Assembly: GCA_021234155.1 (NCBI GenBank)
Contig: JAJEKV010000001.1
Span: 15,058,245-15,122,244, forward strand
Origin: Isoetes taiwanensis
Lineage: Eukaryota > Streptophyta > Lycopodiopsida > Isoetales > Isoetaceae
Reading direction: 5' to 3'
DNA: 64,000 nt
Part shown: piece by piece, positions 4,156 through 50,313 of the stretch
How positions within the stretch are numbered: position 1 is the first letter of the stretch
How the letters are laid out: the number at the start of each line of letters is the position of its first letter
Notes under the pieces: generated by a model
Database searches by the model: none
Told to the model about the DNA's origin: nothing
Seen by the model: the letters and a program-made list of their open reading frames with translations, nothing else
Translations under genes and position numbers: made by a program

Positions 4156-4440
4156 GACACCAATACTAACTTGTGATGCGCAAAGACTATTTGTGTTCCT
4201 AGAAATGAGGTTTCCTTCGTTTCACCGAATAGAAGGAAAACAAGGTTCTAGAACTACGGAGGTAGTTATCTGTTAGTTATTTTGTCCTTTCCCCTTCTAG
4301 CCCTATTTATGTTCTTCCACGTCCCTGTTCTATCTCATCAGCTCTCATTGCATCTCCCTTCTGTCCTTCTACGGTTTGGTCCCATCTGGTGCATCAATCC
4401 TTTTTTCCCTAACATCTCCGTTAGTGCATCGTTGGAGTTT
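4156..4440. repeat. First LTR-like direct repeat with hairpin
   Basis: The segment from about 4195 to 4385 is repeated in direct orientation at about 6183-6376. Each copy starts with an imperfect hairpin: a TTCTAGAA-containing arm, CCTTC, then GAAGGAAAAC and a GGTTCTAGAAC arm. The spacing of about 2 kb with an ORF between the copies resembles a small non-autonomous LTR or TRIM-like element. I did not find a primer-binding site or polypurine tract, so the class is uncertain. Confidence 0.5.
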
Positions 4441-5025
4441 ATGGTCCCCAAGGCCAGTGCGAGAAAGCTTAGGAAAAGGCATGGAGGTGATTTCCACGAC
4501 GAGGATCATGCATGGCTGGAAGCTATGGAAGAAAGTTTGAAAGCTAAGATTGACAATCTGAGTCACGTCATGGAGGCCAGGTTACAGGCCAAATTAGATA
4601 ATCTGAATGGCACTAAGGCAGAAGTTATTGTGGCCTTAGAATCCAAGATCTCATCTCTACAAAAAGAGATCCAGCGGAAGAGCAGCAATGCAAGATCCCC
4701 TGTCTTTAAGTTTCATGAAAATTTCAAGGAGTTTGATTTCTTGAATCAGTTAGAAGACTCTTTTACAGAGTTAGAAGGGCACTTGCAGTCGCATAAGTTC
4801 TTGGATGCAGCAACCAAAGACGTCATTGAGAAAGTTAATACCTTGATTGCTAACAGAAAGAAGCTTATTTGCATCAGAGATAGGGAAGGACCGAGAGTTG
4901 CTGAATTTTACGAAATGGGGTGTTTAACTCTGTTTGATGTGGAAGACGGCCTTAAAATGAGGATCTTACCTGGCGATGGCTACGAGGTTACGTGGTACAT
5001 AAATTTCGAGAATGATTGGGCCTAA
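4441..5025 (+). CDS. Coiled-coil ORF of unknown function inside repeat element
   Basis: The frame is open from 4282, but the upstream part lies in the repeated LTR-like segment. The methionine at 4441 (MVPKASARK) starts the non-repeated part, giving 194 residues. It has a basic start (about residues 5-12), then two heptad-like stretches with KAKIDNLSHVMEARLQAKLD at about residues 30-50, predicted as coiled coil. An acidic and aromatic C-terminal part ends in FENDWA. No zinc knuckle, protease or polymerase motif is visible. It lies between the two LTR-like repeats, so it could be a gag-like or captured ORF. I do not recognise the family. Confidence 0.45.
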   Translation: MVPKASARKLRKRHGGDFHDEDHAWLEAMEESLKAKIDNLSHVMEARLQAKLDNLNGTKAEVIVALESKISSLQKEIQRKSSNARSPVFKFHENFKEFDFLNQLEDSFTELEGHLQSHKFLDAATKDVIEKVNTLIANRKKLICIRDREGPRVAEFYEMGCLTLFDVEDGLKMRILPGDGYEVTWYINFENDWA

Positions 5026-5228
5026 AAGACTCGCTCTAGCTTTTCCATAGAGTTGCAAAAAGTTTGACGAATTTAGTTGGGTCACGAAAGTTTGTTTCTG
5101 TTGATAATTTTTACGTCGTCAATATACGTTTCTACCTCGGTTCTTGCGGTATTAGTAATGCAAGAACCACATGTAGGGGAAGGCCAGCCGAATAAGATCT
5201 GTGGCCTTTTCTAGCTACAACTTTTGTA

Positions 5229-21559: not shown

Positions 21560-24500
21560 AAGGAAGGAAGGAAGTTTATTTTAACGTCCATGGCCAGAGG
21601 CCTATGAGACGGTACATGCAGAGACAGGCAAAAAGCCAAAAACCCCAACACCAAAAACAAACAATGTAACTGTACAGTAGATCCCTACTACCGGGATGAA
21701 AAAACCCCCACTTGGGAGGAAAAACCCTAACAGTAGGCTCTCAAATACCATGCCTCCAAAGAGCAAGTCTGACGGCCGAAATCTGCAGGATGTAAGCTCC
21801 CAGTCGTGCTACCATAGGTGATGCGAGTAACTGATGTAGCGGTGTGTCAGAGCATCTAAGATTAGTGTGCACTGCTCGGACATGGGCATATGCTGGGCAC
21901 CGCTGGAGGGCATGGTGCTCATCCTCTATCACGTGCATCTCACAACACTGACATATCCTCTCCTCCCTGGGGATCCCGTGCCCGCCATTCACCCCCCAGC
22001 GACCTGTTTCAATTCTGAGGTAATGGGATTTCGTCCTTATGGCAGCAATAGCTCTCCGTTTCTTCACAGAGATGTGTGCTTTCAAGTCCCAATGGGGTCC
22101 ATGCTCAAGGCCGGGATTAATCTGAGCATGATAGTGCTCTGTCTTGGGCTTTGCAAGAGTAGAGGCATCCCACAGAGTGGTAGCATAGCCCGCATCCAAT
22201 TGCCCATTCTCGCGCATCGAATGCCCGATTGCCACCATTTGTTGGTAATCCATAGACCACCTCCTAAACCATCCCTTACGATTTGCTCGTGCCATACCCT
22301 CTTCATTTGGGGGGCCTGCGTTAACAACACGGCCTATGAAGGCAAGCGATGCTCATCCATCCCATCCACCTTATGGAAGCAAGTAAGATGCTGCGCATAG
22401 CGTATCTTTGTAAAGGCGAAACCCGTCTCATACAACAAAATCGTCTGATGCGGTGTCCTTCACTCCCAAGCTATATGTCAAGAAAACTTTTCGCACCCTT
22501 TCCAACCTATCCCGCGTGTTTTGCTAAGCTCTTTGGGCCCCAAACCTCCACCCCATATAGCAGCACCGGCTCGACCAAAGCCCTAAGCGGTGTGCTCTCC
22601 TCGCCCGATCCACAGAGATCTATCCAGGCAACACGCTGCGTTTTGCACTGCATATAGAGCCTTCCGGACGACCGGCTCTCCTCTCCACACACTCATCCCA
22701 CAACATGTTAGTAGTGAAATCAATTCCTAGATACTTGAAGCTCCGCACCATCTCCACTTTCTCGCCCCCGTAATATAACTCAGGGATAGGGTGTTGCGAG
22801 GACAAGATCGAGAAGCTTAGTTTTGTGCAAGTTCCTTTGTCATTCCGTTGCCCCACGTAACCCCGATGGCATCCAAATGCTGCATACCTGGCGGGCCGTG
22901 TGGGCTAGCAAACCTACATCATCCGTGATATAGTAACCGGCTCCACAGAGGTCGACGATAATTGCACCCGGCTCCCCATGGTCTTTGCATCCACGTCTCC
23001 AAGCTATCAATGTACAACCCAAAAGCGTTGGAGACAACGGCAGCCCCCGCTTAACTCCCATAGTGCTAGCTACCGCCCGATCTTCATAAGGCAAGTAAAG
23101 CATAAATCCCATCATAAAGCTGGTGCACCACATTCTCGCAACTCTGTGGAACTCGCAATTCTTGAAACCTCTCGCCATAGCATGTCTGGGGGGGACGATA
23201 TCATATGCGTCTTAAAATCTACAAAGCGGCAATACAAGTCTCGGCGCAAGATTAGGCTTGCCTCCATCAACACTCTCAAAGTGAAGATATGGTCGGGTCG
23301 TGGAGTGAGTGAAAAAAGCTTTGCCTGGCCAATTTGCCCCCGCCTCCCTCGCCCACTTAGTGAGTTTCTTCTCCACCACCCCTGCCGGGAGCTTTGCAAA
23401 CAGCGAGCTTACCATAATCATCGGTAATTCAGCCGGCTCATCCGTATTACCGGTTTTATGAGCGGGAACAACCTTACTAACCATCCACTCTCGGGGAGCC
23501 CTGCATTTCGAGCACGGTTAATGATCACCGCGTTAGGGGCCCTACCACGAGATGGGCCACCCCATTTTCAACGGCTTCGACTGCGGCCCCTGTAAAATCC
23601 TTTGCCTTGCCATTCGCCCGGATGCGAGACCTGCTGGACATCCTCCCCGGCGTGAGCTGCGGGACCTCTCCTACTTGATCCAGGGACCCGGCATTAGCTC
23701 ACGGGGGTCATATAACTCCCGCAGCGGTGCATCCATTGCTCCACACTTACATTACCAGCCACCTAACACCTTATGCCAAAAAGCTTTTGGCTCGCCATGA
23801 GCATGTCAAAGCGGGCACTCACGGGTTTCGCCATAATCTCCCCTTCTTGGCTTTTAGGAAGAGCTTATAGTCTTGCGAGGGGCGTGTGGCGCAATTGTGG
23901 ATCTATGAAAGCGCGGTGGCTCTTTAGAGCCTTGCAATCAGCATCAAACCCACGGGTTCTCGGGGAAAATCTTGGCGGTGTCCCTCTTTGGAGGGCCCTT
24001 CACCGCAAAGGAAGCACCAAGAAATGCAGCGGCGCCCTCACCACCATGCACACTGTCTTGCGGTGTGTGGAAGCTATCAAACCCCACAGTAACTCCCGCA
24101 CCAACCAGATTCATCTGTCCCTCGCCCGATAGCGTGGGATGTATGGTAATCCTCCACGCCCTCTTTTGGTGTCTCCACTATTGAGTGCTCCCAATTTGCG
24201 TGACATAAAGCGGGTAGTGATCGACAAAGCCTCCTCATCCCCGTGCTTGTGCCAATGGACAAGTGTGTAACCATGTCAAGTCTTTGCTCGGGGATGCGAA
24301 GGTAATCCAACACACTAGCTCCCCATCCCCGCCTATCACTCCCGCAAGTAACACCCCCGAAAGTGTGGCCATGGCCGCATACCATTACAAATTACCATGT
24401 CAAAAACCTGGCGAGCTGGACCCGGCTGCACGCCAAATGGTCTAGCCACCATATCACGGAGTGGTGTATCTTTGAATAGCGGGTGTCTCAGCCAAAGCGG

Positions 24501-25235
24501 ATCGGCATTAGCGTCACCTTGGAAGGTCACCGACCGCAAGCAAGCTGCCGCCCATTTGAGCATTGAAATCTCCTAGCAAAACACGTCGCCCTTGCTGTCT
24601 ATAGCGGTCTATGTCATCATACGGTTCCTATCGGCATCACGGACATCTATGTCCGCATCATGTACCGGTAGAACTTAGAGCTGCATGGGGAATGCAAAGA
24701 CTAGCAAGAAACAATGGGACATGACCGGGCTCTAATACCATTACCCACATGTAGCGGTTAAATGCATCGGACTTACGAAGTGTGATCTTGCATGCTAAAG
24801 CGTCCCTAAAGTAGCAAGCCACTCCACCGCACCCGCGTGCGTCGCCATGGCTCATTAGCAAGTGAGAAATGCCGATATCCTCGAATGTGCGGCAATCGAT
24901 GCCCTTCATACTCCCATGTCTCCCCGGGAAGGCGATGTCCATGTCTGTCGCGATCCCATTCAAGCCCGCGCCCTTACGCCACGCGAAGCCCCTACAATTC
25001 GAGGGGAAACAATGCGAAGACACTTTCCCTATCTTTGAATGCGGTTGTGGACCCATCGAGTGCCGAGGGGCCCGGCTGCGTGGTTGGAATTTCGGGCAGC
25101 CCGCTCATGGGACCACGATGGATGTCTTTGCCGATTGTGGAAGGCCTCAATCCGCCCTCTCCACGGCTCGCCTCGGTGCGATGCCCCTGGACGCTCGCGC
25201 TGCGACGCCACTGCTCGTGGGAGTCTTTGCCTCGA
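21560..25235 (-). pseudogene. LINE ORF2 (endonuclease, RT, C-terminal domain), first copy
   Basis: This is the minus-strand L1-clade ORF2, broken into many frames. Parts in order are: endonuclease near 24658-25056 (RDALACKITL, RYMWVMVLEPGHVPLFLAS); an EN C-terminal part near 24077-24385; reverse transcriptase near 22840-23180 (GVKRGLPLSPTLLGCTL, and YITDDVGLLAHTARQ at the YADD position); thumb and C-terminal region 22082-22700; and a zf-RVT-like end at 21741-22295 (ICQCCEMHVIEDEHHALQRC). The 3' end is a TTCC microsatellite (sense strand) at about 21560. It copies itself by target-primed reverse transcription in living relatives. This copy is inactive as written. The EN keeps the site that is interrupted in the second copy. 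Confidence 0.85.
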
Positions 25236-28308: not shown

Positions 28309-31300
28309 TAAGGAAGGAAGGAAGGAAGGAAGGAAGTTTATTTTAACGTCCATGGCCAGAGGCCTATGAGACGGTACATGCAGAGACAGGCAAAAAGCCA
28401 AAAACCCCAACACCAAAAACAAACAATGTAACTGTACAGTAGATCCCTACTACCGGGATGAACACTTGGGAGGAAAAACCCTAACAGTAGGCTCTCAAAT
28501 ACCATGCCTCCGAAGAGCAAGTCTGACGGCCGAAATCTGCAGGATGTAAGCTCCCAGTCGTGCTACCATAGGTGATGCGAAGGTGGCGATGTAGCGGTGT
28601 GTCGAGCATCTAAGATTAGTGTGCCTTTGCTTTCGGACATGGGCATATCTTTGGCACAATTTGGAGGGCATGGTGCTCATCCTCTATCACGTGCATCTCA
28701 CAACACGACATATCCTCTCCTCCAGGGGATCCCGTGCCGCCATTCACCCCCAAATGACTGTTTCAATTCCGAGGTAATGGGATCCCGTCCTTATGGCAGC
28801 AATAGCTCTTCGTTTCTTCACGAGATGTGTGCTTTCAAGTACCAATGGGGTCCATGCTCAAGGCGGGATTAATCGAGCATGATAGTGCTCTGTCTTGGGC
28901 TTTGCAAGAGTAGAGGCATCCCGCAGTGGCGGCATAGCCCGCATCCAATTGCCCATTCGCGCGCCGGAATCTGCCCGATTGCCACCATCATTTGGTAATC
29001 CATAGACCACCTCCTAAACCATCCCTTACGATTGCTCGTGCCATACCCTCTTCCGGCCCATTTGGGGCCCTGCGTTAACAACCGCGACTGTGGAGGCAAG
29101 CGATGCTCATCCATCCCATCCACCTTATGGCAAGTAAGATGCTGTAGAGGAATCTTTGTAAAGGCGAACCCGTCTCATACAACAAAAATCGATACTGCGA
29201 TGCGGTGTCCTTCACTCCCAAGCTATATGTCAAGAAAACTTTTACGCACCCTTTCCAACCTATCCCCGTGTTTTGCTAGCTCTTTGGGCCCCAAACCTCC
29301 ACCCCATATAGCAGCACCGGCTCGACCAAAGCCCTAAGCAGGGTGTGCTCTCCTCGCCCGATCCCGCAGAGATCTATCCGGCAACACGCATTTTGCACCT
29401 TTGCATATAGAGCCTTCCACCTGACGGCTCTCCTCTCCACACACTCATCCCACAACATGTTAGTAGTGAAATCAATTCCCGGATACTTGAAGCTCGCACC
29501 ATCTCCACTTCACGTCCCCGTAGCCAATAACTTTCAGGGATAGGGTGTTATTGCGAGAACGAGGATCGAGAAGCTTAGTTTTGTGCAAGTTCAATGTCAT
29601 TCCGTTGCCCCCACGTAACCCAATCGAGGGCATCCAAATGCTGCTTTGCACCGCTGGCCGTGTGGGCTAGCAAACCTACATCATCCGATATATAATAACT
29701 GGCTCACGAGGTCGTCGCATCGAGATAATTGCACCGGCTCCCCCCATGGTGCCGCATCCACGTCTCTCAAGCTATCAATGTACAACCCAAAAGCGTTGGA
29801 GACAGCGGGCAGCCCCGCTTAACTCCCATAGTGCTAGCTACCCGCCGATCTTCAAAGGCGGTGCGGCATAAATCCCATCATAAAGCTGGTGCACCACATT
29901 CTCGCAACTCTGTGGAACTCGCAATTCTTGAAACCTCTCGCCATAGCATGTCTCTGGGTATCATATCATATGATCTTAAAATCTACAAAGCAACAATACA
30001 AGTCTGTCGCGCATTAGGCTTGCCTCCATCAACACTCTCAAAGTGAAGATATGGTTCGGTCGTGGAGGAGTGGGGGAAAGCCTTGCTCGGCCAATTGCGC
30101 ACCCCCGCCTCCTCGGCCCACTTAGTGAGTTTCTTCTCCACCACCCCTCGCCGGGGAGCTTTGCAAGCAAATGAGCTTACCATAATCATCCGGTAATTCG
30201 CCGGCTCATCCCAGATTACCGGTTTTATGAGCGGGAACAACCTTACTAACCATCCACTCGGGGGAGCCCCTCGCCGAGCACGGTTAATGATCGGATTAGG
30301 GGCCCTACCACGGATGGGCCACCCCATTTCAACAGCTCGGCCTGCAGCCCCTGTAAATCCTTTGCCTTGCCATTCGCCCGGATGCACGAGACCTGGCTGG
30401 ACATCCTCGCGTGAGCTGCAGGACCTCTCCTACTTGATCCGGGACCCGGCATTAGCTCACGGGGGTCATATAACTCCACGCAGCGGTGCATCCATTGCTC
30501 CACACTTACATTACCGACCACCTAACACCTTATGCCAAAAAGCTTTTGGCTCGCCATGAGCATGTCAAGCAAAGCTCACGGGTTTTACGCCATGTATCTC
30601 CCCTTCTTGGCTTTTTAGGAAGAGCTTATAGTCTTGCGGGGCTGTGGGCGCAATTTGTGGATCTATGACAACGGCGGTGGCTCTTTAGAGCCTTGCAATC
30701 AACATCAAACCCACGGGTTGTCGGGGAAAATGCGCGGTGTCCCTCTTTGGAGGGCCCTTCACTGCAAAGGAAGCACCAGCAGCTGCAAGCAGCGCCCTCA
30801 CCAGCCATGCACACTGTCTTTGCGGTGTGTAGAAGCTATCAAACTCACAGTAACTCCCGCACCAACCTGATTCATCGCCCCCCTTACGATGGCGTGGGAT
30901 GTATGGTAATCCTCCACGCCCCCTTTTCGGTGTCTCCACTATTGAGTGCTCCCAATTCAGCGTGACATAAAGCGGGTAGTGATCTGACAAAGCCTCTTCA
31001 TCCCCTGTGCTTGTGCCAATGGAGAAGTGTGTAACCATGTCAAGTCTTTGCTACCGGGCGAGAAGGTAATCCAACACACTAGCTCCCCATCCCCGCCTAT
31101 CACTCCCGCCGTAAGTAACACCCCCGAGTGTGGCCATCGGCGCATACCATTACAAATTACCATGTCAAAAACACGGCAGGAGAATTTGGACGGGGCGCAC
31201 GCCAAATGGTCTAGCCACCATATCACGGGAGTGCAGGTGTATCTTTGAATAGCGGGCCGTCTCAAGCCAAAGCGGATCGGCATTAGCGTCACCTTGGAAG

Positions 31301-31438
31301 GTCACCGACCGCGAAGCAAGGCCCGTCGAGCATTGAAATCTCTAGCAAAAACACTTGTCCCTGGCTGCCTATAGCGGTCTATGTCATCATGAGTTCCCTA
31401 TCTGACATCACGGACATCTATGTGCGCATCATGTACAC
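28309..31438 (-). pseudogene. LINE ORF2 3' part, second copy, interrupted by transposon
   Basis: This minus-strand LINE body is collinear with 21560-24662. It ends at a TTCC microsatellite (about 28312-28335) and includes the C-terminal region and broken RT/EN frames. At 31438 the EN reading (NLVRVHDAHIDVRDVR) stops at the inverted repeat of the inserted element. The EN N-terminal half continues at 39718. Many CAG/CTG positions are altered, as in the first copy, giving dense frame breaks. Confidence 0.85.
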
Positions 31439-31464
31439 GAACAAGATTGCGTATTAAGCGGGAG
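31439..31464 (+). repeat. Left terminal inverted repeat
   Basis: GAACAAGATTGC, a two-base variable step, then ATTAAGCGGGAG. It pairs with 39692-39717 with four mismatches. Just inside, at 31487-31500, lies the perfect palindrome AAGGAATATTCCTT. Confidence 0.85.
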
Positions 31465-31754
31465 CAAATCATTGAAACGAGGCTTAAAGGAATATTCCTT
31501 AAAGATTCCTTTTTTTTTTTTATAAAAAGGGGTAAAAACGAGGTTAAAAAAAAAAAAAAGATGCATGAAATTCTATTTTGACCCCCAAAAGTGACTAATT
31601 TTTTGTGCAACGAAAAGAATTGTTTTTAAAGTGTCATTTTTCTTAGCAAATAGAATGTTCTTGAAGTATATTTTACGTGAGAAACCCTAATTTCAGAGGA
31701 TAAAATATTCAACAAAAATTGAAGTTAGTCCCAGATGCTTAAAGCGTAGTATTC

Positions 31755-34700
31755 TCAAAATTTGAAGATAGAATCTTCATATTCATATGCAAAATTCTGA
31801 TCTTTTTCTAAGACTTCGTTATGTGCAAAAGTGTGAGGAGTGATGAAGGAGGGATCCAGGGCGTCATCATGCTCATTTATGCCATCCTCATCACCTTCAC
31901 TTTTTACATTGTCACTAGAGGAAGTGCTTGAGTTATCTTCCTCATCACTATCAATAGATGGTGTAGCATTGCCACCACCTTCTTCATCCTCTTCTTCGTA
32001 ATTACAAGCTTTTTTAAGCAAATTGATAGTCCTCTGGCGTGAGGCGATTGTCGATTTCAATTTAAAATCATAGCACAATATAGTCCGTCATTAAGGATCA
32101 GCTCATCCCTACAACCCACCTTCTTGGACTTTCTTCCTTTTCCTTGGCTTCTCATTTCTAACTCATATCTACCTTCAAAAGCATTTTCTGAGCGTGTTGC
32201 AAGCCAATGAATCTTGAGTTTAGTGACTAAACCTTCCTCCTTGACTGTGTCAAGCACTTTTGCTATCCAGAAAGGTCGACCTTTGTCATCCTCCTCAGTT
32301 GGAAGAGCAATTAGCATACCCTTGGTAATTTCTGTGATATTACCTTGAGGTTCATTCCTGCGTCTTGGTCAGAGGTACATGACTCGATCCTCATCTTCTT
32401 CTCTGCGGTGCTAATGTAGCTTTGCTTGGACTGCTTAGTCTTTGGGGTTGATGGAAGGTGTTAGGCCATCGAAATGGTTCTTGCAAGCTGTCTTAGAGCT
32501 ACATTTTTTTCACAACAATTTTTACATTCGAGAAAGAAATTACTCCACCACATCCGATCTTCTTCTAAGAAGTACTTAAAACGAGGAAATTCCATTTTCA
32601 ATGGCTTTTAAGGATGACTCTGGGGTACTTTTCTTACGCTTGGACTCCTTAGGATTTTTGAGAGGAAGTTGTTCAAAGACGTTCTATGAAGGAAATAATG
32701 CGGAATATATTTAAGGAAGCGTAATCCCTCTTGTGGACTCCAATCCTTAGTTGTGGTATACTTTTTCCCTGTAAGAAACTCGGCCATCCTTCAAGTAGAA
32801 CTTGATGTGATGTTGAAAGGTGAGATCATTCAACTTGTTCACGGCTTGTTCTCAATGTCGAGCGTTGAGAGAAAACAAACTCTCTGAAATCAGCAGTCTC
32901 TTTAAGAAGATCGATCACCGGGGTGGGAGTGTAAGAATCTTCAATAATTTGAACTAATGTAGGAAGGGAGAAAGCCTTCTTCCTTCTAAAAATACCTAAA
33001 AATCTCTTTGAACATCGGTCAATCTGATCATGAGTGTGGCCTACAAGTAAAAAACCGAGCTTCACTTTTCTAAAGATCCCTAGCTCCACTAACATAGCCA
33101 CGGTATGCAAAGAGTGTTTGATTCTTGTTCTCCCTTGTAGTATTGTCAAGTTGCGTAAAAAGCGTGGTGGTAATTGCTCTTGCTCGCCGACAGGGACTGG
33201 TAAGAATTGTAATTGTGAGGTTGGTCACCATGCAAGTTTGGATATGTCAAAATACTTTGCACTTTAGACTTCCTTTGAAGACCATAGCTCCTACAAGGTG
33301 GACCTTAACAAAACATTCCTCGGCACATCTTTAGGAATGTTCAAGAAATGTGGTAGAGTAGTTTTTTTTGGTCCATTCCATCAATCAATGAGACATATAT
33401 TGCGGTGGGACGTTCAAGAGCTTTTTTTACGTGTTTGGCAAGCTTTCTTCTCTCTCTTTGCTTGTTGTTCACGATGCGGCAAGGTTACATTTGCACAATA
33501 TCTCGTAGAAGAAATAAGGTCAAAGCATTTTTTAAAACAAGTGAGAGATTGAAGAACATGAGCTTACTTCTTTTCGACCCTGCGTCTTTTGCGGTTTCTC
33601 TTTGACTTTTTAATTACGCACACCTTGAGCAAAGCGGACATTACATTGTCTCACAGGAATTTTTCAATTCACTTTTCCACAACGGTGAAGTGTGAGTAAG
33701 AGATGTCTTTGAAGTTGAGTGCAAGTCTCTTTGTACTCATTAAAAACATTTTTGGTGATGTTATCGGTTAAATGATACATGTTCTTTGTTAGGCGACTTC
33801 TCACATGTTTCTCTAAAATATTTCTCCATCCATGACCGGCCGGCAAGGGCATGCATGGTTACAACTCTTCTTGGTCCACAATGATCATCAATTGCTGGAT
33901 TTTTGTCGATCTTTTGTGTATTCTAGACATTACGGTAGTCCCTAAGCGGTGGACAACCATAAAGCATTTTCGGCAAACTTCTTGGCCGGTTAATGTAGTG
34001 CAAGAAGGTGTTGCGGTCTGGCCTTACATGATAGGCCAAGTAGGCATTCTGGTCAGCCAATGTCATTGAGCTGTAGTTGTCTCTAATTGCTCGTAATTTA
34101 GACATGTTAAATTTGTTGATGCAACCCAATGCAGCGGCATTTACTTCTTAAAAGTCTTCTCATTTTATGCTCGTCCATAAGGTTTCTTCTTCTTCTGAGG
34201 AAGAGCATGCTCTCACACCATAATCCACCTTGAATTTTTTGGTGGGTGGCTAGAGAAGCGTGTAATCTCGTTGCACTTTGTTGGTGTCTTCATCTTACAA
34301 GAGAGTTCTACTCACGGGGGTGACCTCCCTCGCCCTTAGTGGTGTGCTTGTAGAGGAGAACAAACCCGTGAAGTGGTATGCAGGAAAAGGCGGAGGTGCG
34401 GTGTTGAATGAAGGAGATGGGCGGCATATGATGTGCCAATGAAAGTTGTTGTAAGCGTCTTCACGGGGAGTTCGATCAAACATCTCTCTTATAGCAGACC
34501 GAAATTACGCAAACCCATGTGTCCTGCGTTTGTGTGAAGAGGAGTAGATCTTTGCGGGGTCGCGTCTTCATTTGTAGTGAAATCGTGGTGGGAGAAGCGA
34601 TGGAGAATCTCATGATCTTGAGCGAGCTGTATTCTGGCATGTGTAAGTGAAGATGGAGAAACAACAAGCGGCGGAGGTAGTGTTAGAAAAATTTCTTTGA

Positions 34701-35006
34701 GATCGAGCCATTGTAGTGTCGGGGATGGAACAAATGGTGGTGGAAGATTGCTACGTGCAGCAATGGTGAGGGTTGGAAAGGTGGTGGCAGCCGGTTTCCT
34801 ACTGGACTTGGAGAGGGTTGGAAAGGTGGTGGCAGTCTACTAGTTACTGGACTCGGAGTGTCTTCTAGAAGTAACAAAGACCTTGTCGAGGTAGGTGTTG
34901 AAGAAGCATCTCCGTCTTGTGTTCCATCTGAAGTAGAGGTACTTGGGCAAACAAATGGTGGTGGAAGTTTGTTCACGAAGCGGTTAACCATGTCAAACAA
35001 CTGCAA
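31755..35006 (-). pseudogene. DUF7869-family transposase-like gene
   Basis: Minus-strand blocks in order are as follows. An N-terminal low-complexity part has RLPPPFQPSP repeats (34683-35006). Next is KLRAIRDNYSSMTLADQNAY (near 34090), then CRKCFMVVHRLGTTVMSRI (near 33940). A GHGWRN...LTKNMYHLTDNI block follows (33664-33852). Then come QLDNTTRENKNQTLFAY and, after a frame change, VELGIFRKVKLGFLLVGHTH plus DQIDR (32826-33150). A TLPTLVQ-like and FREF-containing segment is next, then a FWIAKVLDTV...LKIHW block (32057-32317), and an acidic tail (31755-31960). The LDNTTREN and VGHTHDQID pair is characteristic of the DUF7869 family found in plants and other eukaryotes. I infer an RNase-H-like transposase. 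Frame changes at about 33130, 33850 and 32080 break it as written; some may be sequencing errors. Confidence 0.75.
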
Positions 35007-35322
35007 AAAATTGTGGGCTTGTTACTAACTCATAAGTCGATTCGACTAATGATATTCGAGAATACAAATGCTATTCTGGAATAGTATTGTGTGTGCAGCA
35101 TTTGCTGTGTGTGTGCAAGAATGCTATTCCAGAATACACTTATCCAGAGTGTTTGGACAAGACGTATTCCGCATCACATAGAAAAACACAACCCGAGTTG
35201 CCTACTTTAAAAAAGGAAAATTCGGCGCCTCGATTCGTATTGGCTTCGGAGATTTAGTCGCCAGCCCGAGCGCCTTCCGATCAATATACATTTGCTGTAT
35301 TCCGATTCACATAGCGAAAACA
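35007..35322. promoter_or_regulatory. Divergent intergenic region with palindromic core motifs
   Basis: About 315 bp separates the presumed starts of the two element genes and should hold both promoters. It contains shorter versions of the element palindrome: ATATTCGAGAATA (about 35052), CTATTCTGGAATAG (about 35071) and CTATTCCAGAATA (about 35124). Half-sites GTATTCCG and TGTATTCCG lie at about 35163 and 35296. No TATA box can be assigned with confidence. Confidence 0.4.
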
Positions 35323-38300
35323 ATGGACAGGTAAGCATGTAAAGTACATAGTACGTCTTTCTTTTGTTTTCTGATTTGCTTCTGTAGGCCAAAGTGTATT
35401 CCGGAATACACTTTGCCCTTCAAAGAGCAAAGTGTATTAGGAATACACTTTGCACTTCGCCGATGGGCAAAGTGTATTACGGACTTTGCCCATTCTGGCG
35501 AGAATGCAAAGTGTATTCGGAATACACTTTGCCCTTCAAATGAAGAGCAAAGTGTATTAGGAATACATTTTACTCTACGCTGAAGGGCAAAGTGTATTCG
35601 GAATACACTTTGCTCAAATCTCAGATGGGAAAAGTGTGTAGGAAGAATACACTTTTACTCTCGCTGAAGGGCAAAGTGTATTCCGGAATACATTTTGCTT
35701 GTAGTTTTGAGAACGCTTGCTTTTTTCACTAAAATAACACACTTTTTAGCTGCAACAGACAACTTTTTAAGATAAAAATTACTCTTTTGAGTCCAATTAA
35801 GGCACAAGAAATTGACTTAGACTGACAACATTTTAGCTTGTTTTCCTGTCTTTTTCTGGCCTTTAGGGCACAAGATTAGTAAATGTTATTCTGGAATACA
35901 AATTTCGTTTGAATTTCTGTCTTAACATGGTTGTTTTAAACGTTTCAGTGGCAGGGAAGAAGGAAGCAAGAGGGCATCAAAGAAACTTCAGAAGCCCAAG
36001 CGTCCACACCCTCAGAAGCACACCGCTGACACAGATGTGCCCGCTATTTATGAGAACTATCAAACGCTATGGTTCGTGACCAGGGGTGCAGATGGAAAAT
36101 ACAAACCTGCTTGACGTTTTTTGTATCGCCGTAAAAATTTTGGTAACAAAAAGGCGCCCGACTCGAGTTTGTTAACCTTGGGACAATAAAAGATGTCTCC
36201 GAGGTTGCCGGACAAGGAGGTCAGGTGGGGAGGCTATCCTTCAAGACCTCCCAAGGCTTCATTGTTGTGGACATCGCATTCTTTAAAATTGTCAGTGTGC
36301 AACCCACAAGCACTATACAAATTCTTTTTCACACTCTGGGACAAAGCGAAGGTTGTGTTCATGTATTAGGCGAGGTTTGTTTCCAAAGACAAGCGAGGAC
36401 TTTCCTGTCAGTGAGTCCGAGCAATCAGATGGAGAAAGATCACAATCACCACCTTCTGCTAGTTCTTCAGGGAGGTCATCAGATAAAGGTTCTGAGGAAG
36501 AAGAAGAGGAAGAACCCCCTGCGCGGCCAAAGAAACTTAGCAGGCCAAGACTTACCATAGCTGCCAAAGAACCAAAGAAGCGAAAAGTACAGCAGCTTGA
36601 AATCACAGAAGTCCCCGAGGGAAGCACAAAAAAACAAAAGGGAAAAGGAAAAGCTCCCGGGGTAGCAATAAAAGAAAAGAAAGTTGATAAGACCTCCGAA
36701 AGAATGGAGGTAATAAATGCAGAAAAATTTGTACAAGGGGTGATCTATCTTCCTGTAACTTGCATGAGGCTGCCCCCAAAGAATGAAGCTGGTGAAAGGC
36801 CGCTTCAGGTTCGTAAAATTTATGCCGACCACTTAAGGAACCTGAAGGATAGAATTAGGAGCAATCCTAATGCTCATGTGGCGCCAATAGTTGTCCTTGT
36901 TGACAGGGAGCAATGCAACACCCCCCAGGACTATGACAGAGAAAAAGCAGACACTTACACTCACTACGTCTTGGGAGGAAATCATAGCTTCAAGGCAAGA
37001 AGGCAGCTGTACAAGGAAAAAAATAACCCCGGTATCTCAGAGTCCCGTATGCGCGCCTCTCCGTGGTCTCACCAAGCGAAGAAGCAAAAATCGTTGCCAA
37101 CACACACAATGGCGACAACGAGTACAAATTAAAGATGAGCTTTGTCGACAAGATCCGGTTCATGCACGGGGAGTACATGATTTTTAAAGAAAAATATGGG
37201 GAAGACTTGAAGAAACCAGTACTCCTTAGAACCCGAAGGAAGCTCAGCGATGGAGTCTTTGCCTGAAGTACGACGAGGCTAACAAACGGCAGTCACTCAT
37301 ACCGCATGACAACTGGTTTCAATTAGCCTTTAGAGACGGCAGAGTAAGTTTCTTTTGTATTCTGGAATAACTTTCTTGCCCACCGACTCGACTGACCGTT
37401 TATTCTTGTCTTGATTTGGGACCTACAAAACGAGATATTTACCATGTTCGAGCGTGGTGAATTGAAAAGTAAAGGAAAGGTCTCAGAAAAGAAAAAAGGG
37501 TCTGATGTCCCAAAAAAAGAAATGACGATAACAGTGTGGAGAGAAATGCAGGGCTTCACTGACATGGACATACTAGAAAGGCTACTGCAGAAGGTCGTAG
37601 ACAAAGAATTTACTCTAGAAGAAATGTCCAAGGAACTGCACAGGTAACAACGACAGAACTTTAGTCTAAAGTGTATTCCAGAATACACATTCCCTTACAA
37701 GCCGAAGCCAAAGTGTATTCCGGAATACACTTTTTTTTGCTTTCGACAAAAGTGTAAAAGGAAAACTTTTGTATTCGAATACACTATACACTTTTAAACT
37801 TAAGGAATACACGTCGAAAGCAAAAGTGTATTCCGGAATACACTTTGGTTTCCTCTTCTTGGTGTTTTCGTTTTTCGAAAAGAAGTCTTATTTTGTTTCC
37901 TTGTTGTTGACTTCCAGCCAAAAAAACGTTATTACGTGCCAAACGTGTTTAATGGAGCAAATTGAGCGTGGGACAGGGGACGGTGCAAAGAGCTCTATCC
38001 CATTGCTACATCCGACGAGCGTATTATTCAATACGCTCCAAATTTTGAGGGCTGGGTACGTGTTTTTACTGTTTTTAGAGTTTTCCCTTTGTGTTGCATG
38101 AAGCTAACTTTAACCATTAACAGAGCAAGAAGAAGAACAAGGACCTGCCAGAAGGTTTTATGCACTGGTGCGAACGGCCCGAGAAGAGAGGACTCTAGCG
38201 GACGGCGTGTTGTGTAGATCTTTGAGCCGTCCGGACTACGAGAGGTTTTCTATGTTCGATCAAAATAATTTTTATTCTATCATTCATGGGGACTGCACTA

Positions 38301-39178
38301 AGTTGCCAGGAAGTATAAAGCCACAAGATTTTACATTGGTTATAGCAGACCTGCCATATGGTTTTAAGATGAAGGATAGCCGCTACGACGATCAGCCTTT
38401 TAAAAACTCAGAATTTAATGCTTTCGTCGATGGAATTAAGCAGGTTACCACAGCAAAACACTGGCGTCTTGTTGTGTTCCATTCAAGCATGCAGGCCGGC
38501 CTTGTGGAAGCTACTTTCAAGAACCACTTCGGTTCCCCTATGCAAGCCGGTTATGAAAACATGGTCTGGTGAGTCCTACAATCAAAAGTGCCGTTCATGT
38601 GTTCTTTCTTTCAAGTTTTTATTCATGGTTGCAATTGTAACCCGTCAGGGTCTATTCTGGAATACGTACTTACTATTCTGGAATACGATCTTGCAGGTAC
38701 AAAACTAATATTAACTACCATGGTGGAGGACCGAGGCTGCTGAGCAAGGTTGAGTATCTCCATGTAGCTTACTGGAGTTTCGACGGGAAGCGTACCATGG
38801 AGCACTTCAACACTGCAACCTGCCAGAATTTTTCTAATGTCCTAGAGTTCCCAGCAGTATTACAGAAGCTCCAGGACCCAAGTGCACAAGGCAGAATTGT
38901 AAATCATTATCAGAAGCCACAGAAGCTAATCAACCATATTCTGGACATGTTCTCACGTCCAGGAGATTGGGTCCTTGATGCTTTCTCTGGCTCTGGTACA
39001 ACAATAGCATGTGCACTTAAAAAGGGCCGTAATTGTGTTGCTGTTGACATTGATAAAGAGGCTGTAGACTTCATCAAGATGAGGTTGTCTGCTCTACCAA
39101 CTCTACCAGATGAAAATCAAGAGTTAGGAGCTAAATCATCATCAGATTTTGCCAAGATGACATCCTACGAGATCTGAC
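35323..39178 (+). CDS. ParB-like domain plus permuted amino-DNA methyltransferase, intron-containing
   Basis: Likely transfers methyl groups from SAM to an exocyclic amino group of DNA (N4-cytosine or N6-adenine). Proposed exons: ATG mini-exon 35323-35330; 35949 to about 36113 or beyond (joins in phase as MDSGREEGSKRASKKL); about 36353-37343; about 37422-37643; 37918 to about 38055; about 38124-38568; 38697-39178. GT/AG pairs are visible at 35331/35948, 37644/37917 and 38569/38696. Order of parts: basic N-terminus, acidic low-complexity stretch, ParB-like domain, linker, motif IV DLPYG (38347-38361), C-terminal motif I FSGSGTT (38983-39003). This permuted order is class beta. Frame changes near 36113, 36180, 36345, 37040, 37990 and 38190 interrupt it, so it may be decayed or misread. 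AATAAA-like signals follow at about 39430. Confidence 0.7.
35390..35705. repeat. Tandem palindrome array in intron 1
   Basis: About eight units at roughly 40-bp spacing (starts near 35396, 35429, 35472, 35510, 35552, 35594, 35634, 35677) each contain a long palindrome. Its core is GTGTATTCCGGAATACAC, flanked by GCAAA on one side and TTTGC on the other. Some units are shortened at the centre (TATTAGGAATA, TATTCGGAATA). The array lies wholly inside the proposed first intron. It can form hairpins of up to 16 bp per stem and could bind a dimeric protein. Confidence 0.9.
36353..37343 (+). CDS. ParB/Srx-like domain exon of the methyltransferase gene
   Basis: A 259-codon frame opens with an acidic Ser/Glu run (residues about 20-55) and Lys-rich text, then the ParB-like core. 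The core includes VRKIYADHLRNLKDRI, then APIVVLVD, then YVLGGNHSFKARRQLYKE (a GxHR-like motif as GGNHS). After a one-base frame change near 37040 the domain continues as YARLSVVSPSEEAKIVANTH, NGDNE. These match the order of the ParB N-terminal fold (GGxHR motif, then LSxEEA...AxxHN). In bacteria and phages this domain binds or cuts DNA and is often fused to methyltransferases. Exon end 37343 is followed by GTAAGT. Confidence 0.75.
37660..37850. repeat. Second palindrome cluster in methyltransferase intron
   Basis: GTGTATTCCAGAATACAC (about 37671), GTGTATTCCGGAATACAC (about 37714 and 37830) and a collapsed TGTATTCGAATACA (about 37771) sit inside the intron 37644-37917. Single shorter copies (TATTCTGGAATA) occur in the introns at about 37361, 38651 and 38675 and upstream at about 35889. 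Confidence 0.9.
38124..39178 (+). CDS. Methyltransferase catalytic exons
   Basis: The first exon has FTLVIADLPYGFKMKD, the motif IV catalytic loop. The usual motifs are DPPY for adenine and SPPY/W for cytosine, so DLPY is a variant and the substrate cannot be read from it. The exon ends TG|GTGAGT at 38568 and joins 38697 in phase (GYENMVW then YKTNINYHGGG). The second exon runs open to TGA at 39178 and holds HYQKPQKLINHILDMFSRPG, VLDAFSGSGTT and VAVDIDKEAVDF (SAM-binding motifs X-I-II). This is a clean match to PF01555-type N6/N4 methyltransferases. The exon pair is intact and in frame. Confidence 0.85.
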
Positions 39179-39672
39179 CTCCTTTTACAAGCTCTCACGG
39201 AAGATGAAGCTACCTTTGCGAGCTCAAAGAAGTAGCTCTAGCTACTATTCTGAAGAGGCGTTGACACCAGCAAAGATCAAACAGTGCCAAAGGAGCAAAC
39301 TGAAGAGAAAGAAAAAGGTGAGACGAGCAAACCACACACTGAGGACTTCGATTTAGACCTCTGAGTTTTCGTTTGCTATATTATTTATTATTGGCTGCAA
39401 AATACTGCCATACTTACTGTACTGAAAGAAATTAATAAAAAAAAGTTTTACTTTTAACGTATTTTGGATGTCTTCGACTTCTTAGTAATGTTTCTGGTGT
39501 ATTAGTGTCTGCAATTCTGCCATTTTCAAGTGCTCCTTTCTACAAATGCGAGATTATCATTTTAAAGGGCCCCAAAATGCATGATATAATATTTTGTTCC
39601 ACTTAAAATCCCAAGCTTCTTTTGAAAATGATCATTTTTTCAATCTTGGTGTTTTTTTTAAGGGAATCTTTG

Positions 39673-39700
39673 AAACGGGAGTGATGCAACACTCCCGTTT
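39673..39700. repeat. Subterminal hairpin of the transposon
   Basis: AAACGGGAGT and ACTCCCGTTT form a perfect 10-bp stem around an 8-base loop. The outer arm overlaps the right terminal inverted repeat. The left end shows no matching hairpin, but has the palindrome at 31487-31500. Confidence 0.85.
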
Positions 39701-39717
39701 AATTTGCAATCCTGTTC
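39692..39717 (-). repeat. Right terminal inverted repeat
   Basis: Read on the minus strand it begins GAACAGGATTGC and ends ATTAAACGGGAG. It pairs with 31439-31464. The LINE endonuclease resumes immediately outside, at 39718. Confidence 0.85.
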
Positions 39718-41403
39718 CTGGTAGAACTTAGAGCCTGCATGGGGAATGTAGCAGCTAGCAAGAAACAATGGGACATGACCAGGCTCTAATACCATTACCC
39801 ACATGTAGCGGTTAAATGCATCAGACTTCTGAAGTGTGATCTTGCATGCTAAGGCATCCCTAAAGTAGCAAGCCACTCCACCGTACCCGCGTCTGCCATG
39901 GCGCTCATTAGCAAGTGAGAAATGCTGATATCCTCGAATGTCTGGCAATCGATGCCCTTCATACTCCCATGTCTCCTGCAGGAAGACGATGTCCATGTCT
40001 GCATCGCGATCCCATCAAGCCCGCGCCCATACGCCACGAAGCCCCTACAATTCGGGAAACAATGCGAAGACACTTTCCCTATCTTTGAATGCATTTGTGG
40101 ACCCATCTCGAGTGCCCGAGGGACGCCGGGCTGTGGTTGGAATAACTCGGGCAGCCTGCTCATGGGACCCTGATGGATGTGCTGCAGTTGTGGAAGGCCT
40201 CAATCTGCCCTCTCCCTGGCCCCGCACGGGTGCGATGCCCCCGGACCGCTCGCCCCTGCTGACGCCACTTTGTTTCGGGGAGTCTTTGCCGCCTCCGAAT
40301 CGGAGGAGGCACATATACCTTCATCTTGCCATTAACTAAACCAGCAGCCCCTCCAGCTTGTCGAATCTCTCTTATCTTGACCAACTCTTGGCTTCTTTCC
40401 CGTTGTTGTAGTGGCGTGAGATCCAGATCCAGGTATATGGACGTACCTTTCAAGCGACTGGTGCGGTGCAACAACAAAGATTTTGCCTCCCAATCCAAGA
40501 CTGCAAACTTAACTAGCCGAGGCTTCATGTTCGGTCCTCCGACCGTGATTGGACTCTTGATAACCAAATACTGTAATTGGAGCTTTGCAAGTACCAGGGT
40601 GGTAAGCTTACCTGGCAAATCCTCGCCTTGCTCCTCCGGCAATCCCCGCACAATAAGGTTGAGGCGGCGTGCCTGGATGTCTTGCTCCTCACGAAGTACC
40701 CGCCTGATTCCCTGAGCCACCTTGGCCTCTGGCATGGGGGGTGCTGGTGCAGACGACTGTGGTGCACTACGGACTCGTTGCACCTCCATTCGGAGGTCCT
40801 GTATCTCTTGCTGTAAGTGGGCCATATGGTTCTCTATATGTGAGCATCTTCCTGACATCTCCTGCCTGTCTGCCTTTGCTTCATCAAGGAATTGGAGCCT
40901 CCCCCGCACCGCTTCCACATCCTTTTCCTTAGCATCTATCCGACCAGCCATGCTTGTGACTTGTACAATCTGCTGTAGCAACCCCTTCATGTCAGCCCGT
41001 GCTTGCGCCATGTCTTCTATCCACTACTGGTGGACCTTATCCAAGCGGTGCCCCATCTCCGTGACTAGCTGCGTTGTTGCTTGTATCTTCCCTCTTATCT
41101 GGTCATGAGCCTTTTGGGCTCCCCTGCAATCATAATCCCCGAGCCGAACTTCCACAAAGGAAATTCGCTCCTTCTGTTGGAGAAGCTGCTTCTTGAGCGC
41201 AGCCCCTGGGTGATGCCTCCAAGCTTGCCAGCTTAGCCTGGAGGGAACCGGCCTATTCCTGTACAACCCTGATTGCCTCAGCCTGTGATACCTGCTCTGA
41301 TGGGGACGAGGTATCCAAATTGCGGGCTCTTTTCTTCAACGCATGCATGCTGTCAGGGGTTGCCATAGAGGGCCGGGACTGTCAGGTGGATTCCGTCGAC
41401 TAA
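39718..41403 (-). pseudogene. LINE 5' part: 5' region, ORF1 and endonuclease start
   Basis: Minus strand. ORF1 start MATPDSMHALKKRARNLDTS is near 41370, followed by a stop and a frame change near 41266. A 283-codon open frame follows at 40160-41011 with coiled coil, RRLNLIVRGLPEEQGEDLPG and TSIYLDLDLTPLQQRERSQ. This is an L1-type ORF1 (coiled coil, RRM, C-terminal domain), the best preserved ORF1 in the window. The EN N-terminus (MDIVFLQETWEYEGHRLPDI) runs 39996 to about 39718, where the transposon interrupts it. The LINE continues at 31438. It is the only copy with the true ORF1 N-terminus. Confidence 0.85.
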
Positions 41404-49222: not shown

Positions 49223-50313
49223 TTAATCCACACCAGGTTCGTGTATGATCACAGCACTGTAAGAAGGTATATCCTCAAAATTGTTATCCTCCTCATCAAC
49301 AGGAATGATATCATCCCAATAATGCCTGCGGCCAGGCCCATTCCGCTCCACTGGCACAAACCCAGCTAGCAGCCCAAATAAGATGGTCCTCATGTCGGAG
49401 GGCATGCAGTGGTTGGGGTTCAACAAAACCCTCCAAGTTGCTCGAACCTGGTGCTCATTGATGTGAGCTACGTTTGAAGGTATAATCCACTAGCTAAAGA
49501 GAGTAAACTTTCCAGATCGGATCATTCTGGCCAAGGTATACAACAGGCTGGCAGTTAGCCTATAGTTGCCATGGTAATTGACAAAGTGTGCAGCTCTATT
49601 CAAAATGTTCTTATTGTGTAGAACAACAAGGCTCTTCGTATCACCAGCCCCTTCCCCCCCATCTCAAATACAGGTCTTTTCCCTTCTCAATGACAGACTC
49701 GGTGGTGTTGTACATATGGCAAACATAGTGGATCTTGCAAATGTCCTTCGTGCAATACCCAACCATCGCTTCAAAGCAGTGAAGGCAGCTGTTCTTGAGG
49801 GCCTTGCACACCAGAATCATGCCTGATGGTTTTGAAACCCAATTAAAATCCTTCTTAATAGCATCGTTTATAGCCCTGGGACTCTTGAACCGAGCTCTAA
49901 ATACAACACGGCAGTGTAAGTGATCCACACTTGCACCACGTTCCAGGGCCACAGCCCCAGCCAAGCACCTTCTGTTGCAAAAACCAACAAGGGCATCATA
50001 GAAGCTCGTGGAGACGTCTTGCTCAGACAGGCCCAATGTTACACTGACATCTATGGCAGTCCAATCATGTCCAAGGGAAGGGCCCGCAGCAGGCCCTCCT
50101 GTTTGAGAGCCTCTAGATGAGGACCCAATTTCTAATGAGCTCAGAGAAGGAGGCATAGCAGGCGACCCCCTTCCCTTTCCTGGCTGCCCTCCTCAAAGAC
50201 ATAGTGTCACAGACAAAATAAAACAAGGAACACAGAACCATTACCTGTAGCTGAAGTCGCCAAACCAATTCCTGGGGTTGTACCTGCGAAAAGGCCATGC
50301 AATCGGATGACAC
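49223..50313 (-). pseudogene. HUH/Rep-like nuclease gene relic
   Basis: The minus-strand frame 49641-50156 (171 codons) contains a HUH-like motif HLHC at residues 79-82, then FRARFKSPRAINDAIKKDFN, and at residues 134-137 the motif YCTK, 55 residues later. This HUH then YxxK order is that of rolling-circle Rep nucleases (CRESS-DNA Rep and replitron-type transposases). A one-base change near 49663 shifts the frame. Reading continues through NRAAHFVNYHGNYRLTASLL and, after one stop near 49491, to MPSDMRTILFGLLAGFVPVE and RRHYWDDIIP. No helicase motif is seen. It is probably a decayed mobile-element gene or an old captured Rep; remote similarity only. Confidence 0.5.

Follow-up and report, generated by a model that had tools for sequence, protein, structure and literature searches.

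In a stretch of 64,000 nucleotides of Isoetes taiwanensis (contig 907, positions 15058245-15122244, hereafter the window) we identified a decayed copy of a high-copy transposon that is bounded by terminal inverted repeats (TIRs) and carries two divergent genes, one for a DUF7869 protein and one for a DNA methyltransferase with a putative ParB-like part. The two genes recur together in the genome searched (1,658,258,908 bases in 1110 contigs), both are under purifying selection, and the methyltransferase half contains arrays of a palindrome that differs between families. The best explanation that we can offer, tentatively and as close to an even call, is a transposon whose own methyltransferase would be aimed at its own palindrome arrays.

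Extent and gene content of the element

The window copy, which belongs to what we call family 1, spans 31440..39716 (8277 bp), with boundaries taken from multi-copy matches. The initial annotation had placed an 8.28-kb TIR transposon at 31439-39717; the transposon is real, and its limits lie one base further inside because the left and right matches of multiple copies stop there. The left TIR, AACAAGATTGCGTATTAAGCGGGAGC, at 31440..31465 on the plus strand, was delimited by the left-end genome matches and the comparison of full copies, and the right TIR lies at 39691..39716 on the minus strand. The expected 26-bp inverted repeats are thus present, with agreement at 21 of 26 positions rather than 22. 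When the left end was compared with the genome, most matches among the best 40 of 990 candidates began at window position 31439/31440. Right ends were recovered in 11 of 20 methyltransferase-exon loci and terminate in ...GCAATC[C/G]TGTT or a close variant of it, beyond which the flanks are unrelated; of the remaining nine loci, seven had no match and two a spurious match.

The proposed insertion inside a long interspersed nuclear element (LINE) is borne out by a second, uninterrupted copy of the host LINE at 24178..25162 on the minus strand, found by alignment, which represents the empty site. The LINE copies at 24178-25162 and at 30939-31439 / 39717-40217 are 88-89% identical, and the insertion point is intact in the former. 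Measured against this empty site, the target duplication reads CACG on the left (31436..31439) and CCTG on the right (39717..39720), with 2/4 positions matching, and by our own reading of the sequence the LINE reading frame is restored once one 4-bp unit is removed. Because of the empty site and the restored frame, we regard the window insertion as having made a 4-bp duplication that has since decayed. Perfect 4-bp target duplications were found in 7/7 non-window copies that were read at both ends, namely four full copies (L021, AAAC; L023, GCTA; L025, GGTT; L026, CCTA) and three gene-less copies described below (the C4 element, ATAC; L060, AATT; L061, ATCT); copies L022, L024, L027 and L059 showed a single end in the piece read and do not enter this count. 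Aligning copies, a check that the initial annotation had suggested, has therefore given exact ends and duplications. The length of full copies with both ends is about 8.15-8.4 kb.

TIRs combined with a target duplication of fixed length identify the element as a TIR DNA transposon. Target duplications of 4 bp are made by Sola transposons, as also by Ginger and piggyBac. The 4-bp duplication fits Sola but is not sufficient for an assignment, and only the DUF7869 profile (PF25273) matched the transposase. Membership in KDZ (Zisupton) is ruled out, since the available text of PMC12730594 gives an 8-bp target duplication for that group. A DIRS element or other retrotransposon was also rejected: the element frames that we scanned contained no reverse transcriptase or tyrosine recombinase domain, and the ends are TIRs instead of long terminal repeats.

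The broken gene for the putative transposase lies on the minus strand at approximately 31755..34995, as judged by comparison with the 987-aa frame in copy L040; the intact DUF7869 protein has nearly 1000 residues. A transposase-like gene had been read from this strand, and its DUF7869 stretch with the GHTHDQID motif (32826..33224, minus strand) does match PF25273 (E=8.2e-19), as does the L022 copy (E=7e-52). Three acidic motifs, VVIDGMD, LDNTTRENKN and GHTHDQID, are kept in all three sequences aligned. On account of these acidic motifs and the element context, we infer that the DUF7869 protein is a DDE/D-type transposase.

The methyltransferase gene (35324..39177, plus strand) is likewise broken in the window copy; several other copies have long open exons. 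Our own reading of splice sites and comparison of copies gave about six exons, with the frame ending early at 39177, and a layout of an N-terminal module, a ParB-like stretch and then a methyltransferase in two exons. Part of the N-terminal module and the ParB-like exon (with YVLGGNHSFKARRQL) occupy 36287..37132 on the plus strand, where the frame is broken after about 37030; the ParB assignment comes from the NCBIfam match of the L022 copy. Exon A (38126..38572, plus strand), taken from the frames of the window, bears motif IV, ADLPYG, and exon B (38697..39177, plus strand) bears motif I, DAFSGSGTT, within the N6_N4_Mtase domain. The DLPYG and FSGSGTT motifs on which the plus-strand methyltransferase was first recognized are therefore present, and PF01555 (N6_N4_Mtase) matches 38641-39177 on the plus strand with E=4e-18. 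The best PF01555 score is 66 bits against a cut-off of 26.7, and the nearest solved proteins by sequence are the adenine methylases CcrM and MboIIA. Beta-class amino-methyltransferases have motif IV ([DNS]-x-P-[YFW]) ahead of motif I (FxGxG), and DLPY points to N6-adenine. Since the element has this motif order, with ADLPYG in exon A ahead of FSGSGTT in exon B, and the DLPY residues, its enzyme is most likely a beta-class DNA amino-methyltransferase acting on N6-adenine. No relatives were found in the virus and prokaryote collections, apart from one 42% match over 60 residues. Among phage records, 643 match exon B at less than 60% identity and 0 of them cover 80%, and the ParB-like exon has 0 matches.

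Recurrence of the gene pair and selection on it

Genome lists were made from the best 150 of 3384 candidates for the methyltransferase exon, of 7261 for the DUF7869 exon and of 9907 for the DUF7869 profile, so that counts of pairs drawn from them are lower bounds. Counting the window, at least 37 of these 150 methyltransferase places lie no more than 25 kb from a place on the DUF7869 exon list, where about 0.7 would be expected by chance. All but one of these pairs (36) are divergent, and 23 of the divergent pairs are 5.4-6.2 kb apart. The initial annotation had called for such a genome-wide search and would have considered the pairing accidental if other DUF7869 copies with these TIRs never carried the methyltransferase; that outcome did not occur. 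Twelve copies were hand-picked across the ranking from the 113 DUF7869 places without a listed partner, and in 8/12 the 3 kb where the partner was expected contain methyltransferase or ParB-like exons. Copies anchored by the left end (8 of 39 non-window places) have the transposase in 8/8 cases and the ParB-like exon at its usual place in 6/8. The pair of DUF7869 gene and methyltransferase is systematic. The DUF7869 profile found no match in 14 control genomes.

We estimated dN/dS (omega) by the Nei-Gojobori method for stop-free copies covering at least 85%, found by protein similarity, with duplicates removed (L001, L008 and L014, which duplicate the window, L021 and L024). The samples comprised 12/35 loci for exon B, 18/33 for exon A, 5/14 for the ParB-like exon and 5/18 for the transposase, and 42 exon-A and 6 ParB pairs were excluded as saturated. 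At dS>0.3 the median omega is 0.050 for exon B (31 pairs, 12 sequences), 0.081 for exon A (50 pairs, 18 sequences), 0.033 for the ParB-like exon (2 pairs) and 0.071 for the transposase (7 pairs, 5 sequences). Because these medians are similar, purifying selection, as judged from substitution rates, keeps the methyltransferase about as strongly as the transposase. An accidental pairing, a host gene and a one-locus artefact were rejected in view of the recurrence, the fixed divergent order and purifying selection.

The two halves of the element have different histories. In eight long copies (L021-L027 and the window), positions 0-2700, which hold the left end and the C-terminal part of the transposase, are mostly 87-99% identical (12 pairs; 81% in one end bin). 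The methyltransferase half, by contrast, splits into lineages with only about 55-81% identity between them, rising to about 90% in the bin that contains the ParB-like core. Copy L022 resembles L021 at 2700-5100 and L025 after 5100, and L025 resembles L026 at 2700-4800. With the transposase part near-uniform and the methyltransferase half divided into old lineages joined as mosaics, the alignments indicate that recombination swaps modules between copies.

Palindrome arrays in three families

Pattern search located two palindrome arrays in the window copy, A1 of the TGTATTCCGGAATACA type in intron 1 (35391..35697) and A2 in a later intron of the methyltransferase gene (37668..37847), as well as three solitary TATTCnnGAATA sites in the intergenic region (35047..35136) and two in the last intron (38647..38685), none of them assigned a strand. 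The 16-bp palindrome TGTATTCCGGAATACA has 3392 exact sites in the genome against 0 for the reversed control, and TATTC-N1-2-GAATA occurs at 14 sites in the element and at 0 in the remaining 55.7 kb of the window. Every one of the eight long copies has two groups of TGTATTCCGGAATACA or its variants, one in intron 1 and one in the later intron, as well as isolated TATTCnnGAATA sites between the two genes or in other introns. No TATTCnnGAATA site lies below position 3600 in these copies, that is, in the transposase part, and the arrays sit about 4-6.7 kb from the left end.

Neighbouring exact TGTATTCCGGAATACA sites with 22-30 bases between them (38-46 bp apart allowed) form 910 pairs in the genome, with 0 in the control. 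The pattern listings hold the first 50 distinct sites in contig order, and in the 50 distinct pairs so listed the spacing is 41 bp (12 pairs) or 42 bp (38 pairs), about four helical turns. Two lineages have the TGTATTCCGGAATACA core in common although the identity between their intron bins is only about 55-71%. In the arrays, the three positions that flank the 12-mer TATTCnnGAATA to either side (GTG/CAC) have an information content of 1.4-2.0 bits, higher than at most positions beyond them. At the palindrome centres of L021-L027 and the window, 52/65 departures from CG are TG or CA, which looks like CG-methylation decay inside the arrays and is what host CG methylation extending into them would produce.

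Copies without either gene also carry the arrays. Eight palindrome clusters, hand-chosen among the first listed sites, were read, and five adjoin transposase or methyltransferase exons. The gene-less C4 element, 3778 bp long, has both TIRs and is flanked by ATAC/ATAC; its arrays lie at about 370-910 and 3020-3270, and no gene was matched in it. Counting the element itself, 16 genome places match its interior over at least 570 bp, and of the others L059, L060 and L061 were also read. L060 (3690 bp, AATT/AATT) has both ends, a left array and sites on the right, L061 (2458 bp, ATCT/ATCT) has both ends and a left array, and L059 has the left end and an array, with no right end found in the piece read. 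Three gene-less copies therefore combine both TIRs, perfect 4-bp duplications and arrays, and a fourth has one end unread. Two interior frames of gene-less elements were searched for a captured host gene and gave no Pfam match above cut-off. L048 has, starting at 2268, a frame of 578 residues that resembles a Gypsy-type pol protein and is situated next to or within an element end with palindromes.

The DUF7869 profile search (best 150 of 9907 candidates) was topped by another family, here called family 2 and represented by L063 and L064. Its identity to family 1 is 52-64% in the DUF7869 exon, 39-46% in the N-terminal transposase exon and 43-48% in the ParB-like exon. Both copies have the divergent gene order of family 1; the frames of L064 are broken, and it keeps motif IV as ADIPYG. 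Neither L063 nor L064 contains TATTCnnGAATA, and L063 has no family-1 palindrome within 3 mismatches. Instead, each has nine sites of GGTATGAATTCATACC within 3 mismatches, six of them 5' of the ParB-like exon and three after it. In L063 the frame GTAT-N6-ATAC occurs 9 times, against a shuffle mean of 0.24 and a maximum of 2. A third type has GTATAAATTTATAC sites, 5 in L065, 13 in L066 and 4 in a stretch of L053; L065 and L066 adjoin DUF7869 places, and the ParB-like exon of L066 (33-46%) and the methyltransferase exons of L053 (29-41%) are of this third type. In L053 a family-1 left-end copy contains, at 4100-4900, these methyltransferase exons with their GTATAAATTTATAC sites in opposite orientation, which suggests a nested or recombinant element.

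Counts over the whole genome were 7218 for GGTATAAATTTATACC (reversed control 0), 64 for GTATGAATTCATAC (control 11) and 13 for GGTATGAATTCATACC (control 0), and an unrelated centre, TGTATCTCGAGATACA, had 0 sites (its control 1). The palindromes of the three families thus have common GTAT...ATAC arms and differ in the central six bases (TCCGGA, GAATTC and AAATTT). In L066, 5/12 neighbour distances are 28-32 bp, and the spacing in family 2 is irregular; because these spacings differ, the 41-42 bp phase belongs to family 1.

Proposed mechanism, rival explanations and related systems

In the mechanism that we tentatively propose, an autonomous DNA transposon family would move by means of its DUF7869 protein as transposase, as the TIRs and 4-bp duplication suggest. 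Its second protein, a ParB-like/beta-class DNA amino-methyltransferase most likely specific for N6-adenine, would be directed to the element's own DNA by the family-specific palindrome arrays (GTAT-N6-ATAC; in family 1, TGTATTCCGGAATACA), which are found in non-coding sequence of the methyltransferase half and also in non-autonomous relatives. The methyl marks might tag the element's DNA as its own and oppose silencing by the host, or might gate transcription and transposition; replication timing and family identity are other candidate effects. That the enzyme is active, acts on adenine and reads the palindromes is part of this proposal, and the initial suggestion that the element methylates DNA, perhaps its own, thereby keeps its conditional form and gains the arrays as a concrete candidate target. 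That each of the three families examined has its own repeated palindromic address suggests that the element recognizes and marks its own DNA. We think that some element-encoded protein reads the palindromes; the methyltransferase would be the leading candidate, given that its half of the element holds the arrays, and the transposase would be its main rival, given that gene-less copies keep them. A more specific version of the proposal, possible but somewhat doubtful, is self-addressed epigenetic writing, in which the N-terminal part of each family's methyltransferase would read its own palindrome code and thus mark the element and its non-autonomous followers as self, apart from rival families. 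The fixed GTAT...ATAC arms, the variable 6-bp centre and the placement of family-1 sites mostly on one face of the DNA would then be features of this code.

Several observations weigh against the proposed mechanism. The palindromes are tied to the methyltransferase by position, and the transposase or a host factor could read them instead. A ParB-like domain, as first annotated, is plausible, and its score is weak: NCBIfam ParB TIGR03764 matches the L022 copy with E=0.0073 and 16 bits against a cut-off of 143.75, no Pfam family matches this part at E<=1, the family-2 exon has no ParB match at E<=0.1, and the AlphaFold2 model of the ParB-like part has a predicted local distance difference test (pLDDT) score of 33.6. 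The assignment of DUF7869 as an RNase H-type transposase comes from context and motifs, and AlphaFold2 models are of low confidence (pLDDT 33.6 and 32.5). Some copies depart from the pattern: 4/12 sampled partnerless DUF7869 copies have no methyltransferase in the 3 kb read, the left-end copy L054 has none in 5 kb, L053 has only its family-3-type methyltransferase on the other strand, and neither L053 nor L054 has a family-1 palindrome. Three of the eight palindrome clusters have no recognizable exon within 2 kb, and all three show an element end. Median omega at dS 0.05-0.3 is higher (exon B 0.21, exon A 0.16, ParB-like 0.11, transposase 0.20), as expected with decaying copies. As to the arrays, the looser pattern GTATT-N0-4-AATAC occurs twice in the window outside the element, the spacing is not uniform (41/63 neighbour distances of 100 bp or less in the eight copies are 41-42 bp), and the 12-base frame TATTCnnGAATA, with TATTC and GAATA at 2 bits, is invariant by construction of the search. 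Family 2 is of low copy number, with 3/9 of its sites in a 112-bp tandem repeat, and family 3 is known from the pieces L065, L066 and L053 and not from a whole element.

The palindromes could instead be binding sites of the DUF7869 transposase, the methyltransferase being untargeted or modifying those sites to time excision after replication, and we consider this unlikely. In En/Spm, subterminal repeats are bound by TnpA, and Dam times IS10 excision relative to replication. Gene-less copies must be moved in trans, and they keep arrays about 370-910 bp from the left end (4/4) and in 2/4 also about 510-760 bp from the right; in the eight long copies, however, TATTCnnGAATA sites are confined to the methyltransferase half, and the mosaic copies are near-uniform in the transposase part but not in the array-bearing half. 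It is improbable that the arrays are functionless by-products of tandem duplication (minisatellites) or hairpins, with homogenization conserving the palindrome. Unit duplication would yield just such a 41-42 bp period, three family-2 sites do lie in the tandem repeat, and the measure of core conservation is partly built into the search, but the GTG/CAC bases outside the required 12-mer are conserved above most bases further out, single sites occur in other introns as well, and the palindromes of the three families differ within a common outer frame.

Quite improbable, in our judgement, is that the arrays are sites of host transcription factors, such as heat-shock elements (TTCnnGAA), that serve as promoter or enhancer of the methyltransferase gene. 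The family-1 core does contain TTCCGGAA, and one array lies in intron 1 just after the inferred gene start. However, the family 2 and 3 centres GAATTC and AAATTT destroy TTCnnGAA yet keep GTAT...ATAC, which weakens the heat-shock reading, and the arrays persist in gene-less copies and in the later intron. It is very improbable that the element captured the methyltransferase once as a host gene, or that the enzyme is a useless passenger: gene-less copies exist and some copies have no methyltransferase in the stretch read, but the best 150 of 3384 candidate copies, its fixed order relative to the transposase, strong purifying selection and the recurrence of the pair in family 2, at the identities given above for the DUF7869 and ParB-like exons, all argue otherwise.

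The proposed self-recognition and self-methylation have parallels in the literature, which we cite here from the text available to us. The Ectocarpus transposon Sola1-1_Ec32 (Dinatale et al. 2025, PMC12477816) carries a ParB-like gene with a 4mC/6mA-type methyltransferase that is encoded on the other strand from the transposase; self-binding and self-modification were proposed for it, and similar proteins were cited from green and red algal transposons. The Isoetes element likewise has its methyltransferase gene, with a putative ParB-like part, opposite the transposase inside a DNA transposon, in the arrangement of the accessory proteins of that paper. The initial annotation knew of no plant transposon with this pair; given the Ectocarpus precedent, the pair is not new in kind. 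Sola1-1_Ec32 differs in being 21.5 kb long, and the available text mentions no palindrome array. In the open-access literature, outside which most subscription journals lie, we found no land-plant report of such a pair, no mention of palindrome arrays in elements of this kind and no paper in which DUF7869 is named.

Family-specific motif arrays are known from VANDAL21 of Arabidopsis (Hosaka et al. 2017, PMC5735166), where arrays of YAGTATTAY in introns and other non-coding parts are enriched in the family and recruit the element's own anti-silencing factor, VANC21; targets of VANC6 use other motifs. As in the Isoetes element, the arrays lie in non-coding parts of the element that encodes the factor. 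In contrast, VANDAL21 is of Mutator type, and VANC is no methyltransferase and causes loss of methylation, so that the Isoetes design would be a writer instead of an eraser. Retrotransposons with DNA methyltransferases are described by de Mendoza et al. (2018, PMC5890265), namely LINE and DIRS elements of Symbiodinium and Gypsy elements of Klebsormidium, with purifying selection reported for the latter, and DIRS elements with Dam-like adenine methylases are cited there; unlike the Isoetes element, these are retrotransposons with DNMT- or Dam-type enzymes, without PF01555 and a ParB-like part in the text available. Fungal DNA transposons with TET/JBP genes (PMC12730594) also carry a DNA-modification enzyme, but it is an oxidase that removes or changes marks, and they belong to other superfamilies with other duplication lengths. 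The N4CMT of bdelloid rotifers (PMC8885841) is, like the Isoetes enzyme, a bacterial-type amino-methyltransferase in a eukaryote with a link to transposons; it differs in being a horizontally acquired rotifer gene with a chromodomain that marks transposons for silencing, and the available text does not describe it as element-borne.

For transposon-borne ParB-methyltransferases, binding and modification of the element itself had already been proposed, and whereas the available text of PMC12477816 gave no binding site, the arrays supply a candidate. Internal controls are at hand in three families with three centres, in lineages with saturated synonymous sites and in gene-less followers. The question of what a transposon gains from its own DNA methyltransferase can thereby be tested directly, in a vascular plant whose genome offers thousands of candidate target sites; it also bears on whether plants use base marks other than 5mC. 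If true, self-addressed writing would be a eukaryotic transposon analogue of specificity-switching modification systems.

Elsewhere in the window, no RNA families were found at Rfam gathering scores. A 183-residue frame at 49644-50192 on the minus strand matches Replitron_HUH (PF21859, E=2e-14) above the cut-off and appears to be the remnant of an HUH-endonuclease transposon.

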